Part shown: positions 7,742 to 26,664 of the stretch, piece after piece | Layout of the letters: the number at the start of each line of letters is the position of its first letter | Position numbering within the stretch: position 1 is the first letter of the stretch | Assembly: GCA_016870365.1 (NCBI GenBank) | Contig: VGBW01000011.1 | Coordinates: forward strand, 1-37,839 | Reading direction: 5' to 3' | Length of the DNA: 37,839 nt | Source of the DNA: Actinomycetota bacterium | Lineage (GTDB): Bacteria > Actinomycetota > Actinomycetes > Nanopelagicales > Nanopelagicaceae | Notes under the pieces: generated by a model | What the model saw: only the letters and a program-made list of their open reading frames with translations | What the model was told of the DNA's origin: nothing | Database searches by the model: none | Made by a program: the position numbers and the translations under genes

Positions 7742-8779
7742 GTGAACGTTAAAGATTTTAAGATGTTTTCAGAGATTTCTGAGAGCCCTGAGGTTTTCTC
7801 AAGGCTGATCGATTCTGAGAAGCAATTTGAAAGGGCAGCAGAGGAAATAGAATCAAAGACTATAGCTAATGTAATTATCTTAGCTCGAGGAACCTCTGCT
7901 AACGCAGGCCACTATTTGAAGTTTCTCATTGAAGTCAAATTGGGACTGCCAGTGGGACTTGCTTCACCTTCATCTGTTTCAATCTATGGCGCCAAACCTA
8001 ATTTCAAAGACACCTTAGTTATTGCCTTAAGTCAGAGCGGAAGATCACCGGATCTCCTCTCCTTTGCAAGCGCCTCTAGAGAGGGCGGAGCGCTACTAAT
8101 CACCATGACGAATGTCTCAGATTCTCCCCTGGCAAGAGCCGGTGATATTCATATAGATCTATCTGCAGGGCCTGAAGTTGCCGTTGCTGCCACAAAGAGT
8201 TATTCAGCTGAACTCCTGGCATCACTACTCCTGATTGATGCCTGGATGGGAAAGAGGGGGAAGAATCGCTCACACCTAGGTGATGCTTCTAGAAAGTGTC
8301 TTTCGAGCTTGAGTGATGTAGATAGTTTTGCTAGCACGCTAGATGCCAAGAGGGAAATTGTGGTGATTGGCAGGGGATATGCATATGCCAATGCCAAAGA
8401 GCTGGCACTTAAGATCCAAGAGACTAGCTATATTCCGGTACAAGGGATGTCTAGCGCTGATTATCAACATGGCCCGATTGCAACCCTTAGCAAAGATTGC
8501 CAAGTAATAGTGCTTTCGCCCTCAGGGATGCCAAAAGGGGCGCTGGAGGATTCAATTATTCGTATTCGCCAGAGTCAACCAGAGATTATCTGGCTAGGGA
8601 GCAGTCAACTTGCAATAGAAGATGAGAGAACAATTCTCGGCTCTAGCCTAGATAGCGAGGAAGAGTCAACGATAATTGATGCCGCTCTGATTCAATACTT
8701 AACTCTTGGTTTTGCCGTAAAAAATGGCTTCAATCCAGATTCTCCAACAGGGCTTAGTAAAGTAACGCTTACCAAGTAA
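7742..8779 (+). CDS. SIS-domain glucosamine-6-phosphate deaminase candidate (NagB-II / AgaS / GlmS isomerase-like)
   Basis: The 345-residue protein has two SIS domains in tandem, like the isomerase half of GlmS but without the glutaminase half. Visible motifs are EISESPEV near the start, ILARGTSANAG, ALSQSGRSPD, the long VAVAATKSYSAE segment, then ELALKIQETSYIPVQGMSSADYQHGP in the second domain. Proteins of this type serve as GlcN-6-phosphate deaminases (NagB-II) or related aldose-ketose isomerases. In this operon the best guess is GlcN-6-P to fructose-6-P plus ammonia. The first possible start is GTG 7742. An ATG at 7763 would remove seven residues and aligns better with the family's usual N-terminus. 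Confidence 0.82.
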   Translation: MNVKDFKMFSEISESPEVFSRLIDSEKQFERAAEEIESKTIANVIILARGTSANAGHYLKFLIEVKLGLPVGLASPSSVSIYGAKPNFKDTLVIALSQSGRSPDLLSFASASREGGALLITMTNVSDSPLARAGDIHIDLSAGPEVAVAATKSYSAELLASLLLIDAWMGKRGKNRSHLGDASRKCLSSLSDVDSFASTLDAKREIVVIGRGYAYANAKELALKIQETSYIPVQGMSSADYQHGPIATLSKDCQVIVLSPSGMPKGALEDSIIRIRQSQPEIIWLGSSQLAIEDERTILGSSLDSEEESTIIDAALIQYLTLGFAVKNGFNPDSPTGLSKVTLTK

Positions 8780-8781
8780 CC

Positions 8782-9132
8782 TCACCAGTTCAATAAGCCA
8801 ATAATCTCCTCATCATCAATCTTGGCTGGATCAACGAATCGAGCCTGCGAATACCAGTGATTCTGCTCGATTGTGTATGACTGAAGCCTTCGCAGACTCT
8901 CTAGGACCTCTTCACGCTTGACCCCAAGATCTTCTAGGCGATGCCTGGTTCTTGCTAGAGATATCGTTTCTTTGGCTCGTTGAAAGTCATTACCTTGAAG
9001 ATAAGACATGATTAAAACCCCCATACTTACTAACTCTCCATGAAGGATGGTCCTACCGGTTACTTCCTCAAAAGTGTAAGCAAAGAAGTGCTCGGATCCC
9101 TCCTCAAATCTGGCATGCCCCAGATTCGCGAT
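8782..9132 (-). pseudogene. 3' remnant of an iron-containing alcohol / sn-glycerol-1-phosphate dehydrogenase-like gene
   Basis: Reading leftward from 9132, 116 codons encode the C-terminal third of an EgsA/AraM-like dehydrogenase: GHARFEEGSEHFFAY, then TGRTILHGELVSMG, SYLQGND and a long helical tail. The two histidines that bind the metal in this family are kept. The NAD-binding domain and the first two thirds (roughly 250 residues) are missing. A TGA stop (9133-9135) interrupts the frame upstream, exactly where homology to a permease begins on the other strand. Methionine codons within the remnant could give an 80-residue product from 9024, but that would lack a fold. It is read as a truncated, dead gene. 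Confidence 0.8.
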
Positions 9133-9134
9133 TC

Positions 9135-9545
9135 ACTCTGGTACTTCCTTATACAGGTTTAGGAATTCCTTTAGCTACATGGCTCTTGAAGGCATACCTG
9201 GATTCGCTCCCTAAAGAACTTTTTGAGGCTGCGCGCGTAGATGGTAGTAGCGACTTCGGCATGTACAAGATTATTGCTCTGCCACTGCTCAAGCCCGGAA
9301 TAGCCACCGTCGCGATCTTCACTGCGCTGGGATCATGGAATGAGTTTCTTCTCGCCAACATTTACGTTCAAACAGATGATTACAAGACGATTCCCGCAGG
9401 ACTGCTCGCCTTTTCAACCAAATATGTTACGGATTATCAATTGCTATTTGCCGCACTCACGGTAATAACCATCCCCATGATCATCGTCTACATCGTGTTT
9501 AACAAGCAAGTTGTAGCCGGCTTGACTGAAGGATCACTAAAGTAG
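9135..9545 (+). pseudogene. 3' remnant of a MalG-type sugar ABC permease gene
   Basis: The frame carries the second half of a sugar permease: LVLPYTGLGIPLATWLL, the EAA loop (LFEAARVDGSSDFGMY, then LPLLKPG), GSWNEFLLA and a typical VVAGLTEGSLK end. Homology starts near 9135. The first three or so helices and any binding-protein or MalF gene are absent. A TTG at 9186 could start a 119-residue product, but it would have only part of the membrane core. The left edge abuts the broken dehydrogenase gene on the other strand. Confidence 0.82.
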
Positions 9546-9549
9546 GTCC

Positions 9550-9630
9550 ATGTTCTCACTCGCTGGAAAGGTCGCTCTTGTTACAGGAGCGGGGTCGATC
9601 AATGGATCAATCGACAAGAGGGAATCGTGA
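9550..9630 (+). pseudogene. 5' remnant of an SDR gene, now a 26-codon leader ORF
   Basis: It starts 4 nt after the permease remnant. The first 16 codons read MFSLAGKVALVTGAGS, the classic first strand and glycine-rich NAD(P) loop of a short-chain dehydrogenase. After that the frame loses similarity and ends at TGA 9628-9630. The stop overlaps the GTG start of the next gene (GTGA, 4 nt). The rest of the SDR gene is gone. The short frame could still be translated and couple ribosomes to the SIS gene. Confidence 0.75.
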
Positions 9631-10358
9631 GGGCACAAGGTCGCTATTTAGATAATCTGATAAAAAAATTGGATGAGCTTAGGGAGAATGATGATTCGAT
9701 CGAGCGCGCAGCTAGTGCGATGGCTGATTCCTTGGAGAATGATGGTCTAATCCACATCTTTGGCACTGGCCACTCACACATGTTGGCTGAAGAGATGTTT
9801 TATCGAGCCGGCGGCCTCGGCGCGGTCAATCCAATTTTGGATGAGGATTTGATGCTTCACAAAAATGCAAGTCGAAGCACGGAATTAGAGCGAGATGCAG
9901 AACTGGCTCCGACGATTCTCGGTAAACATCGCCTCTCAAAAGGGGACGTCTTTATTATTGCATCTAATTCTGGTGGCAATGCGTTGATTGAAGAAATCGC
10001 AAAGAGAGTAAAAGAACTGGGCCTGGTGGTGATCGCCATAACAAGTATTCAACATGCTACATCTTCAGTAGCGCGCGCCAAAGGAAGAAAGCTACATGAA
10101 CTCGCAGATATCGTCATTGATAATCTGGGCGAAGTGGGTGATGCTTCGATTGTCTTCGATGAGATCCCTGAAAAAGTGGCTCCCACATCAACCGCAATGG
10201 GCGCAGCCATCGTGAATGCAATTACTGCTAGATCGGTTGAGATACTTATTGCGCGGGGGGTCAAGCCGCAGATCTTTAGCAGTAGTAATACGGTTGAGGG
10301 TGATATTCGAAATAATGAACTTATTGGCCGCCTTAAGAGTCGAATTCCTATACTGTGA
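9627..10358 (+). CDS. SIS-domain protein, UPF0309-like (SIS_2)
   Basis: The 243-residue protein has a single SIS fold: FGTGHSHMLAEE near residue 45, RAGGLGAVNPI, SNSGGNALIEE as the sugar-phosphate serine loop, and a C-terminal SSNTVEGD segment. It resembles the actinobacterial UPF0309 group, whose substrates are mostly unknown but which bind phosphosugars. GAGGG lies 5 nt before the GTG at 9627, which supports that start. The start overlaps the stop of the SDR remnant, and the end overlaps the following SDR gene by 4 nt. It may be a phosphosugar isomerase or sensor. A specific reaction cannot be assigned. Confidence 0.8.
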   Translation: MRAQGRYLDNLIKKLDELRENDDSIERAASAMADSLENDGLIHIFGTGHSHMLAEEMFYRAGGLGAVNPILDEDLMLHKNASRSTELERDAELAPTILGKHRLSKGDVFIIASNSGGNALIEEIAKRVKELGLVVIAITSIQHATSSVARAKGRKLHELADIVIDNLGEVGDASIVFDEIPEKVAPTSTAMGAAIVNAITARSVEILIARGVKPQIFSSSNTVEGDIRNNELIGRLKSRIPIL

Positions 10359-11116
10359 TTGACCAGAAAAGACCAAAGACAAGGTCTGCACTTGTTTCGG
10401 GCGCTGGCGCTCCAGGAGGAATCGGAATAGCAATCGCTAAGACGCTCAAAGAGTTGGGCGCTGAAGTCTTTATAACTTCAACTACCGAGCGAATCCATGA
10501 TCGAGCAAGTGAGATTGGAGTCACCGGGCTAGTTGCTGACTTAACAAGTGAGAGTGATTGTGCTCGAGTGATTGAGGCGGTGGGAACTTTGGATATCTTG
10601 GTAAATAACGCTGGAATGGCGAGCGTAAATAGCCCACTTGGAGCCGATGAGGCTAGTGATCTTACGAATGTTACTAGTGAAGCCTGGCAGCGAGGCATGC
10701 AACGAAACGTTGATACCGCTTTCAATCTCACCAAAGCAGCTCTGCCACTGTTGCGAAAATCAAAGAGTGGTCGCATCATTATGGTCTCTAGCGTTACTGG
10801 TGGACTGATGGCGATGGCTGACCAACCGGTTTATGCCGCTGCAAAAGCAGCGATGATCGGATTGATGCGCTCGATAGCTTTAGATGAAGCGAAGTACGGA
10901 GTTACTTGTAATGCAGTATTGCCAGGATGGATCGAGACCGATACCCAGGGCGCTCATGAGAAATTGCAAGGCTTAAAGACTCCACTAGGGAGAAGTGGAA
11001 AACCAGAAGAGATAGCTGGATTGGTGGGATGGTTAGCATCAACAAGCTCTGGCTACATGACGGGCCAAGCTCTAGTTGTTGACGGTGGAAATTCGATTAG
11101 GGAAGAGCGAGCCTGA
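10355..11116 (+). CDS. Short-chain dehydrogenase/reductase (FabG-like SDR)
   Basis: The 253-residue protein has a Rossmann fold with the cofactor loop SGAGAPGGIG at 15-24, NNAG near 84-87, catalytic Ser145/146, Tyr160 and Lys164 (VYAAAK), and a C-terminal MTGQALVVDGG. The usual TG motif at the start of the loop is replaced by SG, with an extra AP in the loop. Classical SDRs of this type oxidise sugar alcohols or sugar acids or reduce ketones. The substrate here is unknown. GTGA overlap with the SIS gene and a 1-nt overlap with the GNAT gene place it in one transcript with both. It is a different gene from the SDR remnant at 9550. Confidence 0.88.
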   Translation: MIDQKRPKTRSALVSGAGAPGGIGIAIAKTLKELGAEVFITSTTERIHDRASEIGVTGLVADLTSESDCARVIEAVGTLDILVNNAGMASVNSPLGADEASDLTNVTSEAWQRGMQRNVDTAFNLTKAALPLLRKSKSGRIIMVSSVTGGLMAMADQPVYAAAKAAMIGLMRSIALDEAKYGVTCNAVLPGWIETDTQGAHEKLQGLKTPLGRSGKPEEIAGLVGWLASTSSGYMTGQALVVDGGNSIREERA

Positions 11117-12797: not shown

Positions 12798-13925
12798 ATG
12801 TCTTTGAAGAAAACACTTATTGCAGCGGCAGTGGCGCTGACCTCTTCTGCGCTAGTTATTTCTGGAACAACTTCAGCAAGTGCTGCAAAGGTTCCTTCAG
12901 CAAAAGCAAAAGCTGGGGATGAGTGCGGCCGTGCTGGAATGGTCGCCAAAGCCCGTGGAGCAGAAGGCTTAGACCTTCGTTGCATCACCATGGCCTATGG
13001 GACAGCTTCAGGCCAACTTCGTTGGGGTTACCCCGACCTTAAGCCACTTAAGAACCTTGATTGGGTAGTTCCTGCTAACCCAGGCGGATACTCACAGACC
13101 TCAACTGCGATTAGCGAATCGCTGAAGAAGGAAGGACTTCTTACCACCTACAGCTCAACATTTAAGCCCGGAGCCGGTGGAACAACAGGGCTGGCATTCT
13201 TCCAGGAAATAAAAGCTAAGCCTGAATCAGTTCTGATTACCGGACTTGCCATGGCAGGAGGAATTCCTTCAAACAAGTCGCCGCTTAAATTACAAGCCTC
13301 GACTCCAGTTGCCAAGGTGATGCGCGAGTATCAAGCTCTGGCGGTCCCAGTAACTTCCAAATACAAGACGCTCTCAGCATTCCTTGCTGACTGGAAAGCA
13401 AACCCAAAACTTGCTATCTCTGGTGGATCACTAGGTTCAACCGATCATCAATTCATCGGTCTACTTGCAAAAGCTGCCGGCATTGACCCCAAGGCGATGA
13501 ACTTTGTGGTCCACTCTGGTGGACCTGAAGTTCTTGTCTCCATTCTCTCCGGAGCCACTATTGCTGGAACCTCTGGCTCTGCTGAATTCCAGGCACAACT
13601 GGTAGCAGGAAAGATCAGAGTGCTTGCAGTCTCATCAGCCAAGCGTCTGCCAGGTTATAACGCTAGGACCTTGAAGGAACAGGGCGTTGATCTGGTCTAT
13701 GGAAACTGGCGCGGAGTCATGGCGACTGCGGATCTATCTGAAGCCGATCGCCTAAACATGGTGAAGGTTTTCGACACCATGCGTGGCACCGATACCTGGA
13801 AGGGATATCTAAAGCAATACAACTGGGATGATGAATGGGCCGCAGGTAAGGCTTTTGGATCATTCCTGACCATTCAACTTCCATTAGTAGCAGGGGTTAT
13901 CAAAGACCTAGGTCTTGGTGGCTAA
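12798..13925 (+). CDS. tctC: TctC-family substrate-binding protein of a tripartite tricarboxylate transporter, with extra N-terminal Cys module
   Basis: This exported binding protein of the Bug/TctC family has 375 residues. A signal peptide covers about residues 1-30 (cleavage near SASAA). Between it and the binding fold lies an additional module of about 40 residues with Cys43, Cys62 and Trp76 (DECGRAGMVAKARG, then LDLRC and LRWGYP). It resembles small Cys-pair repeats often seen in secreted actinobacterial proteins. The TctC fold then follows from about residue 88 (DWVVPANPGGYS, KPGAGGTTG, GSTDHQF). AGGAG lies 6 nt before the ATG. The ligand, probably a carboxylate, is not predictable. It heads the tctCBA-MFS operon. 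Confidence 0.88.
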   Translation: MSLKKTLIAAAVALTSSALVISGTTSASAAKVPSAKAKAGDECGRAGMVAKARGAEGLDLRCITMAYGTASGQLRWGYPDLKPLKNLDWVVPANPGGYSQTSTAISESLKKEGLLTTYSSTFKPGAGGTTGLAFFQEIKAKPESVLITGLAMAGGIPSNKSPLKLQASTPVAKVMREYQALAVPVTSKYKTLSAFLADWKANPKLAISGGSLGSTDHQFIGLLAKAAGIDPKAMNFVVHSGGPEVLVSILSGATIAGTSGSAEFQAQLVAGKIRVLAVSSAKRLPGYNARTLKEQGVDLVYGNWRGVMATADLSEADRLNMVKVFDTMRGTDTWKGYLKQYNWDDEWAAGKAFGSFLTIQLPLVAGVIKDLGLGG

Positions 13926-13942
13926 CTCAAGGAAGTGCTGAC

Positions 13943-14452
13943 TTGAACAAAGTCTCACAAGCAGGGAAGGGGGAGCTGGTCTTTGCCGGCGCCCTCTTCC
14001 TTGTTTCATTAGTTGTTTTCTGGGACACCAGTGGTTTAGTTCTACCCACAAATAACACGGTAATCAGCCCGCGCACCTTTCCATACGCGGTAGCAACACT
14101 TCTGATGTTGGCCTCATTAGGCATTGCCTGGGAAGTATTTCGTGGACGTGCAGCTATCCCTGAAGGGGCAGGCGCTGATAGCACTTTCCAAAGAGCTGAC
14201 TTTAAGACCATGCTGATTATCCTGATCGGCATTGGATTGCATACTTTCTTACTGGAGAGAACCGGCTACATAATTGCGGCCACAATCTCATTCTGGTCTG
14301 TGGCTTATGCTTTTGGCGCCAAGAGGATTGTTAGGGTCGGTCTCATCGCCTTTGTGTTTTCAGCTCTAGTTTTCTTTAGTTTCACGAACCTACTCGATAT
14401 CCAATTGCCAGAGTGGTTCATCGAGCGGGCCATATCAAAGGTCGGCAGTTGA
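13943..14452 (+). CDS. tctB: TctB-family small membrane subunit of the tricarboxylate transporter
   Basis: The 169-residue membrane protein has four predicted helices, beginning with [20 protein letters not shown]. It contains the [15 protein letters not shown] segment typical of TctB. It is the small, poorly conserved subunit that accompanies TctA. TTG is the only reasonable start, because the nearby GTG frame closes at once, and AAGGAAG lies upstream. The stop shares one base with the TctA start. Confidence 0.88.
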
Positions 14453-15972
14453 TGTTAGATAACTTCAACTTTCTTCTAGATGGCTTTGCCGCGGCTTTTG
14501 TATTTAGCAATCTGATTTATGGCTTCATCGGGACTTTCTTGGGAACACTGGTTGGAGTCTTGCCTGGAATAGGACCGGCGTTGGCAATAGGACTTCTGCT
14601 GCCGATAACTTTGACAGTTCAGCCCACCCAAGCCCTCATCATGTTTGCTGCAATCTACTACGGGGCTATGTATGGAGGATCAACAACTTCCATCCTGCTA
14701 AATACCCCAGGTGAGAGCGGTTCGGTAATTACTGCAGTTGAAGGAAATAAGATGGCGCGGGCAGGAAGGGCAGCTGCAGCTTTAGCCACCGCAGCCATTG
14801 GCTCCTTTGTCGCGGGGACTATCGCAACCTTACTTCTTGCAATGGCAGCGCCAGAGCTGGCAGAGATAGCACTGACTGTGCAGCCGGCGGGATTTCTAGC
14901 TTTGATAATAACTGCCTTCGCCACCGTCGGCACACTTCTTGGCTCCTCTCGGATTCGCGGGATACTCTCGCTTGCAGTTGGGCTAACCGTGGGCTTGGTA
15001 GGAGCGGACCTGCAATCAGGCTCTCTACGCCTGACCTTTGGAAACAGAGCAGCTATCGATGGGATAGAGACAGTAACGGTGATCGTTGCACTCTTTGCTC
15101 TTGGGGAGATTTTTTATCTGGCAAGTAGGTTTAACCATGGGCCTTGGCAGGTCATACCGATCGGTGGTCGAGCGATAATGAGCAAGAGTGACCTTAAGCG
15201 CTCTTGGAAGCCATGGCTGCGAGGAACGGCAATTGGTTTTCCTCTAGGGGTTGTGCCGGCTGGAGGGTCTGAGGTTCCCACATTCCTCTCCTACGCAGTA
15301 GAGAGAAAACTGGCCAGAGGCAAGAACAGGGAAGAGTTTGGCCATGGCGCAATTGAAGGCGTGGCAGGTCCGGAAGCTGCAAATAACGCCAATGCAGCGG
15401 GAGCTCTAGTGCCGCTCCTTGCTCTGGGATTGCCCACATCTGCCACCGCTGCAGTTGTCCTCGTCGCATTCCAAAGTTATTCGATACAACCAGGCCCGCT
15501 CTTGTTTATGACTAACCCAGAGCTAGTTTGGGCTCTAATCGCCTCACTATTTATTGGTAATACCCTTTTGCTGATCCTAAACCTACCCTTCATCCGATTC
15601 TGGGTTAAGCTGCTTTACATTCCAAGGCCTTACCTATATGCAGGAATAGCAACCTTCGCTCTGCTCGGCGCTTATGCTCTCAATAACTCAATCTTTGATC
15701 TTCAGGTCGCCCTAGGGGTAGGAATGATTGGCTATCTCTTTAGGCGATTTGCCGTCCCAATCACACCCATGGTGATTGGAGTGATCCTAGGTCCCTTGGC
15801 CGAGCTCTACTACAAACGTGCTCTGCAAATCAGCCAAGGAGATCATGGCGTCTTGCTCGATGGTCCTTTGACTAAGTCACTGTATCTCTTCTTGATTCTA
15901 TTGATTTTTCTCCCCCCGATATATCGTCGTTTCATAGGAAGAAACAGAGGAAAAACCAAGGCCGACTCTTGA
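14452..15972 (+). CDS. tctA: TctA-family large permease of the tricarboxylate transporter
   Basis: With the ATG at 14452 the protein has 506 residues, the family's usual size. A longer frame from 14413 would run through tctB and was rejected. It has about 11-12 membrane helices and the conserved TctA loops [19 protein letters not shown] and [15 protein letters not shown] near the N-terminus. Their symmetrical partner follows in the second half ([14 protein letters not shown] and [18 protein letters not shown]). It should move the TctC-bound carboxylate using an ion gradient. Confidence 0.93.
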
Positions 15973-24894: not shown

Positions 24895-26664
24895 ATGGCT
24901 CGTAACATCATCAATATCGAAGGGGTTTCAAAGGCCTTTGAGATTACGCCCCTACTAGTTGATGTCTCACTCGGCATCTCAGAGGGTGAGCGAATAGGGA
25001 TTGTTGGGCGAAATGGAGGTGGTAAATCAACGCTCCTTAGAATCCTAGCGGGCCTGGAAGATGTTGACTCCGGAAGAGTTACTAGGGCTAATTGGGCAAA
25101 GCTTGGCTCTCTAAGCCAAGTAGATAGCGCTCAAGCAGGTGCGACAGTTCGAGATGTTGTAGTTGGGGTAAAGAAAGTTCACGAATGGGCAAGTGATTCT
25201 GGTGTGCGTGAGATCATCGCTGGGCTCTTTGGTGGATATGAAAGCTCGATCATGGATCGCCCCTTTGCTTCACTATCAGGAGGTGAGAAGCGAAGAGTTG
25301 GCATTGCTAAATTACTAATACAGAGCCTTGATGTCGTTTTGCTAGATGAGCCGACAAATCACCTTGACGTCGAGGGAGTAGCCTGGCTTGCAAAGCATTT
25401 ACGCAAACGCCGCGAGCTAGCAGTGGTAGTAATTACCCATGATCGTTGGTTCTTAGATGAAGTATCAGATTCCATCTGGGAGATGATTGATGGCAAAGTA
25501 GAGTCATATGAAGGTGGCTACTCTGCCTATGTTCTTGCCAAGGCTGAGAGAGTGAGACAAGCAGGCGCTGAAGATGCTAGACGCAATAACTTGATTCGCA
25601 AAGAACTTGCCTGGCTGCGTCGTGGAGCACCTGCAAGAACTTCGAAGCCGAAGTTTCGAGTTGATGCCGCTAATCAATTGATTTCTGCTGAACCATCGCC
25701 GAGAAATCAGGCAGAGTTATTGAACTTTGCTACCAATCGCCTAGGAAGCATGGTCTATGAGATTCACAATGCCAAATTAAGTATCGGTGAAATTACCCTG
25801 ATTGAAAAACTTAATTGGAATATCGGCCCTGCAGATCGCATCGCCCTAGTAGGCGTGAATGGCTCAGGAAAGACCACTTTGATGCGAACCCTGGCTGGGC
25901 AATATCGCTTCTCCGCTGGCAAATTACAGAGAGGCATCACAGTCAGAGTTGCTTTTCTCTCACAGCACCTCGAGGAGCTAGATCCCGCCTGGCGAGTCTT
26001 GGAGGCCGTTGAAAATGTGGCTCTACGGGTAGATCTTGCCGGGGGGCGAGAGATTTCAGCCTCACAGCTCTGTGAGCGGCTCGGCTTTGATTATGAGGGA
26101 CAGCAGAAGATGGTCCGTGATCTCTCAGGTGGCGAGAAGCGAAGACTGCAATTAACTCGCCTACTTATGGATTCACCAAATGTTCTTCTACTTGATGAGC
26201 CAACTAATGACTTCGATGTTGAGACACTCACTGCCCTTGAAGATCTCTTAGATACCTACGCTGGAGTAATAATTGCTATCTCCCATGATCGCTACTTTCT
26301 CGAAAGGGTGTGTGATCGCTTTGTTGGGCTAATCGGTGATGAAACTCTTCAAGATTTGCCTTTGGGAATTGAACAATATTTAGAGTTAAGGACTGAGATG
26401 ATTTCTCGGAGCATTGCTATCGCTGATAAGAAAGAGATTTCCGGAGCTGCTCAGTTGCGCCTGATAAAGAAAGAGCTGGCAAAGGTTGAAAGACAGCTTG
26501 AGAGAGTCATTCAACAAGAACAAGGGTTGATTAGAGAGCAAGAGGAGGCAGCCTTTGATCACAAGATGCTTCTTGAAGTTGGCGCTAAGCTATCTGATAT
26601 AGAAAAGCTTCGGGCAGAGCTAGAAGACAAGTGGTTGGGGTTAAGTGGCCAAGTCAAGGAGTAA
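24895..26664 (+). CDS. ABC-F family ATPase (Uup/EttA-like)
   Basis: The 589-residue soluble protein has two ABC cassettes and no membrane helices. The first Walker A is GRNGGGKST (38-46) with signature LSGGEKRR and Walker B LLDEPTNHLD. The second has GVNGSGKTT, LSGGEKRR and LLDEPTNDFD. The linker is short and basic-rich. A C-terminal coiled coil of about 90 residues (LIKKELAKVERQLERVI onward) resembles Uup. ABC-F proteins act on the ribosome, and some give antibiotic resistance. Nothing here points to resistance. It overlaps the downstream transporter gene by 20 nt. Confidence 0.92.
   Translation: MARNIINIEGVSKAFEITPLLVDVSLGISEGERIGIVGRNGGGKSTLLRILAGLEDVDSGRVTRANWAKLGSLSQVDSAQAGATVRDVVVGVKKVHEWASDSGVREIIAGLFGGYESSIMDRPFASLSGGEKRRVGIAKLLIQSLDVVLLDEPTNHLDVEGVAWLAKHLRKRRELAVVVITHDRWFLDEVSDSIWEMIDGKVESYEGGYSAYVLAKAERVRQAGAEDARRNNLIRKELAWLRRGAPARTSKPKFRVDAANQLISAEPSPRNQAELLNFATNRLGSMVYEIHNAKLSIGEITLIEKLNWNIGPADRIALVGVNGSGKTTLMRTLAGQYRFSAGKLQRGITVRVAFLSQHLEELDPAWRVLEAVENVALRVDLAGGREISASQLCERLGFDYEGQQKMVRDLSGGEKRRLQLTRLLMDSPNVLLLDEPTNDFDVETLTALEDLLDTYAGVIIAISHDRYFLERVCDRFVGLIGDETLQDLPLGIEQYLELRTEMISRSIAIADKKEISGAAQLRLIKKELAKVERQLERVIQQEQGLIREQEEAAFDHKMLLEVGAKLSDIEKLRAELEDKWLGLSGQVKE

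Follow-up and report, generated by a model that had tools for sequence, protein, structure and literature searches.

The stretch of DNA analysed here (the window) is contig 11, 37,839 nucleotides long, of a metagenome-assembled genome from a member of the Nanopelagicaceae. The genome is 1.29 Mb in size, is split into 25 contigs and is 96% complete. Between an intact sugar isomerase gene on the left and intact SIS_2 and SDR genes on the right, the window holds remnants of a dehydrogenase gene, a malG permease gene, an SDR gene and a GntR regulator gene, with two junctions among them, J1 and J2 (Table 1).

Table 1. Genes, gene remnants and junctions at the scar, in window positions.
Feature	Position	Strand	Evidence
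Intact gene with SIS domain (sugar isomerase), anchor on the left	7742..8779	+	Pfam SIS E 5.9e-32; 83% to G009/G019
Fe-ADH_2-type glycerol-1-phosphate-dehydrogenase-like 3' remnant	8782..9122	-	Codons 225-336 plus stop; aligned to intact 336-aa homologues
Junction J1, 3' part of the dehydrogenase gene on the minus strand to that of type-B malG on the plus strand	9122..9123		Nucleotide and protein alignment; at most a few bases common
Type-B MalG permease 3' remnant	9123..9545	+	Codons 132-271 plus stop; intact G047 MalG
SDR 5' remnant, about 19 codons, MFSLAGKVALVTGAGSING	9550..9606	+	84% over 19 aa to G020 SDR start
Junction J2, SDR 5' end in frame with GntR 3' end	9604..9606		GGA codon assignable to either
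GntR/UTRA regulator 3' remnant, last ~8 codons	9604..9630	+	Match to G012 GntR end
Intact SIS_2 phosphosugar isomerase gene	9627..10358	+	Pfam SIS_2 E 2e-44
Intact SDR gene, overlaps SIS_2 stop	10355..11116	+	Pfam adh_short_C2 E 2.6e-50

The dehydrogenase remnant reads from 9120 to 8782 on the minus strand, 112 codons plus stop, and in nucleotide alignment its homology to relatives stops at 9122. The initial annotation had rightly seen a dehydrogenase tail on the minus strand, but had given it about 116 codons up to 9132; this position is the next stop codon in the dehydrogenase frame and lies inside antisense malG sequence. The remnant shares 94% of its amino acids with G009, L039 and L040, and 86% with G002 and G003. 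It lacks the N-terminal NAD-binding part and has no Pfam match of its own. In an intact relative the Fe-ADH_2 match (PF13685) covers residues 60-143, a span that is absent here, and instead of the NAD-binding and catalytic domains of the family codons 225-336 alone are left. The malG remnant consists of 140 codons plus stop and retains a Pfam match (BPD_transp_1, E 2.1e-16). The aspartate encoded at 9123-9125 pairs with residue 132 of the 271-residue G047 MalG in protein alignment, so that the malG tail, correctly annotated before on the plus strand, starts at 9123 and not at about 9135 with ~137 codons. Of a complete permease with its partner MalF and its binding protein (SBP), only codons 132-271 are present. 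Neither the dehydrogenase remnant nor the malG remnant contains a stop or a frameshift. Alignment to intact homologues thus agrees with the earlier description of two head-to-head genes that have each lost their 5' part, with homology switching strand within a few bases; the relatives that keep an intact dehydrogenase/importer pair, proposed at the time for placing the breakpoint, put it at 9122/9123.

The second junction, about 60 bases downstream of the malG end, was missed by the initial annotation. Starting 4 bases past the malG stop, the SDR remnant matches the SDR start of G011 at the DNA level over its first ~20 bases, and then runs in frame into the end of a GntR gene. The product ends in NGSIDKRES*, against GSIDTKRVS* for the GntR of G012, and the overlap between GntR stop and SIS_2 start is the same in the window and in G012. 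The intact regulator of relatives has GntR and UTRA domains. At J1 and at J2 at most a few bases are shared, and both are non-homologous joints. The longest direct repeats within 100 bases are 8 bases (J1) and 9 bases (J2) long; we do not take them for deletion repeats, since both copies are still present and neither appears to lie at a joint. A scan of viral contigs gave no exact match to the J1 sequence and no relative of protein P0001.

Relatives have intact genes at the same place. In G009, G002, G003 and L041, the counterpart of the sugar isomerase gene at 7742 is directly followed by an intact dehydrogenase, and G012 has the same block with one additional gene between the two. The block holds the SIS gene and, on the opposite strand, the dehydrogenase with a gene for a PIG-L deacetylase, then a divergent SBP-MalF-MalG importer (importer A). 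After the importer come GH1 and GNAT genes on the opposite strand, then GntR, SIS_2 and SDR. Where the contig extends that far, these are followed by the GNAT gene found at 11116 in the window. L040 and L039 also hold the block, L039 in different surroundings, and in two members of the genus (G021 and G023) GH1 stands directly after the SIS gene, without a dehydrogenase remnant. The layouts differ across relatives, and therefore gene content at this site is variable. Conserved short forms of the dehydrogenase or malG, which had been named earlier as an argument against a scar, were found in none of the genus mates searched. Both outer ends of the scar fall within this one known block. Relative to the G009/G012 layout, about 7.3 kb has been lost, from dehydrogenase codon 225 to the last GntR codons, and a 484-base piece made up of a type-B malG end and an SDR start stands in its place.

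Some further observations concern these relatives. Importer A and the dehydrogenase are 93-99% identical at the protein level among L039 (G223), L040 (G124) and L012 (G009), which are filed under three genera; this suggests either that the block was transferred recently or that contigs were misbinned. At 8925-10311 of L013 (G002), the match to the sugar isomerase gene and the match to a cupin gene are both broken in two, which suggests frameshifts or sequencing errors. Beside the cupin gene, L018 (1-1940), L020 (8045-10579) and contig 7 of G002 have two adjoining genes that are absent from the window, which we take to be probably xylose-isomerase-like and xylulokinase-like. Two database labels look misassigned: L042 is an acI-type contig labelled Clavibacter sp. 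BS5, and L051, from a MAG series and with unrelated-looking gene content, is labelled Bifidobacterium breve.

The MalG of importer A, which is native to the locus, is just 38-40% identical to the remnant in eight relatives. The best match is instead from another genus (G047, 78-79% of amino acids), followed by G034 (70-72%) and others at 59-65%. By these identities the remnant is assigned to a different importer type, here called B, and not to importer A. No close relative of the type-B malG was found in 23 other genus members searched (E 1e-40 or stricter); its close relatives sit in other genera of the family, and an order-level search for a closer donor added nothing to the 296 genomes of the family search. 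Importer B is usually found beside SIS_2 genes, in several genomes also beside a NAGidase (beta-N-acetylglucosaminidase) gene or homologue, and these neighbours make it likely that it imports amino sugars. An intact type-B malG with an SDR gene directly behind it was found in no genome, a point against the mosaic reading given below. The GC content of the inserted piece (0.473) is like that of the window (0.469), so composition is uninformative on origin.

The two sides of the scar differ in ancestry. On the left of J1, genes share 78-96% identity with G002 and G019. The SIS_2 gene right of J2 has its best relative in G012 (72-75%, against 66-67% for G002, G003 and G009), and the SDR gene at 10355 is 82% identical to G011, 69% to G012 and about 60% to G002 and G009. 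At the ABCF gene at 24895, identity to G002 is back to 87%. Ancestry switches between the SDR and NagA genes; the GNAT gene at 11116, which is 71-85% identical to all relatives, cannot discriminate. Further right, the TctC and TctA genes at 12798-15972 are 83-85% identical to G011, compared with 52-58% (TctC) and 68-72% (TctA) to G002, G020, G015 and G023, while the MFS gene that follows is 86% identical to G002. This stretch is another exchanged segment. Set against the left flank, the TctC/TctA, SIS_2 and SDR identities show that the region has been partly exchanged with a G011/G012-like lineage.

The scar is real, recent and undecayed. It is single copy in its own genome, where the N-terminal part of the dehydrogenase, PIG-L, GH1 and NAGidase have no match; queries with SBP and GntR of the importer A block and with SBP and MalF of type B find paralogues only, at 23-31% identity. 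The missing parts are thus absent elsewhere in this 96%-complete genome. The Ka/Ks of the dehydrogenase remnant, 0.026-0.028 against G009, L039 and L040, is about 0.03, and the truncation is therefore recent. At sites fixed in five relatives, 11 of the 14 changes specific to the window are synonymous and 3 nonsynonymous, and the binomial probability of seeing no more than 3 nonsynonymous changes in a neutral sequence is 4e-5 when 75% of changes are taken as nonsynonymous. Scaled by sites, a neutral branch with 11 synonymous changes would have about 40 nonsynonymous ones. Since 3 were observed, the truncated state spans, as a rough estimate, at most about a fifth of the branch. The initial annotation had also read the loss as recent, and these ratios and counts support it. 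Both short remnants are dead but have not yet decayed.

On balance we lean towards a recombination mosaic, in which the middle of the resident block is gone from the island and two illegitimate joins enclose a short segment of type B. The setting would be a flexible amino-sugar island in a Candidatus Planktophila-type genome, whose resident lineage would have held the block of its relatives (sugar isomerase, dehydrogenase and PIG-L on the minus strand, divergent importer A, GH1, GNAT, GntR, SIS_2, SDR). By the identities, the right-hand part, with the GntR tail, SIS_2 and SDR, stems from a lineage like G011/G012, which sets it apart from the left flank. We infer that DNA of another lineage joined without homology at one end, in the SDR gene, and by homologous recombination further right, with the remaining island genes deleted before or during this step. 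The mechanism would then be homology-facilitated illegitimate recombination, which has been described in naturally competent bacteria (PMC3240628). Such a mechanism would join incoming linear DNA by homology on one side and without homology on the other, and so leave truncated genes at one edge. In contrast to that system, the event is here read from sequence only, and no position was located for the homologous crossover on the right, where the GNAT gene at 11116 does not tell the relatives apart. A ComEC-type competence protein is present in the genome and Ku was not found in it, neither of which is decisive for the mechanism. Our best reading makes no choice as to the order and number of events among the steps of the mosaic.

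The main rival, a serious contender although we hold it to be rather unlikely, is that two plain deletions occurred in a composite island that once had both importers, one of which fused the dehydrogenase with the type-B malG and the other SDR with GntR, while incoming DNA played no part at the joints. Such islands have a counterpart in G047, the closest malG source, where dehydrogenase, importer A, GntR, SIS_2, NAGidase and importer B occur together, and the dehydrogenase and type-B malG are 12.3 kb apart in the orientation that J1 requires. (L049 also combines the dehydrogenase with importer B, but there the two are co-oriented, and its layout was discarded as a source of J1 for that reason.) In G034, moreover, SIS_2 directly follows the type-B malG. 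The GntR and SIS_2 genes of G047 would however lie inside the first deleted stretch, so that a second copy is needed, and this history has to face both the ancestry of SIS_2 and SDR, which differs from that of the left flank, and the lack of importer B in any genus mate at E 1e-40. The single deletion of a native dehydrogenase/importer pair proposed in the initial annotation now looks improbable. The geometry of the remnants speaks for it, and its account of a loss holds to the extent that the missing parts are absent and that relatives keep both an intact dehydrogenase and a divergent importer at this site; the low identity to the native MalG, the second junction at 9604-9606 and the differing ancestry right of J2 contradict a single deletion of that pair.

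A further possibility, which we doubt, is that one repair event swapped the ~7.3 kb for the 484-base piece as foreign filler, both of whose joints would be illegitimate, in a genome without detected Ku. If true, a streamlined freshwater bacterium would here provide a natural case of long-patch double illegitimate recombination. An assembly artefact or strain chimera has to be considered in a metagenome-assembled genome split over 25 contigs, but it would have to produce two independent junctions with few shared bases, and with repeats far under usual assembler word sizes, in a single-copy region where both flanks are syntenic with relatives and no missing gene part is found elsewhere in the assembly; we consider this very unlikely. 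Hardly any weight is given to the idea that the short forms are functional small proteins under selection. The frames are open and the Ka/Ks of the dehydrogenase remnant is low, yet recent truncation alone predicts such a ratio, the remnants have no start codons of their own at the joints, one lacks the NAD-binding part and the other is half a permease, and none of the genus mates searched has such forms.

Among known systems, the locus stands close to the flexible islands for carbohydrate use in the freshwater acI actinobacteria (Nanopelagicaceae). Site content in these islands likewise varies by species, with or without the dehydrogenase, importer A or SIS_2, and with GH1 directly after SIS in some; what sets the window apart is a content switch with its joints still visible. 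As in the deletion scars and gene remnants of streamlined bacterial genomes, truncated gene ends are found where relatives have intact genes, but here a pair of junctions falls inside about 480 bases, and a search of genus mates did not turn up the operon of the middle piece. Events of this kind are already known, and the locus is an ordinary, though well-preserved, trace of gene loss and exchange. It is worth noting that what appears to be the scar of one deletion can conceal a second junction and foreign pieces. For the streamlined freshwater actinobacteria, the locus offers a recent case, resolved to the base, in which exchange and loss at one shared site have changed the sugar-uptake repertoire and have left truncated ends that are still undecayed.
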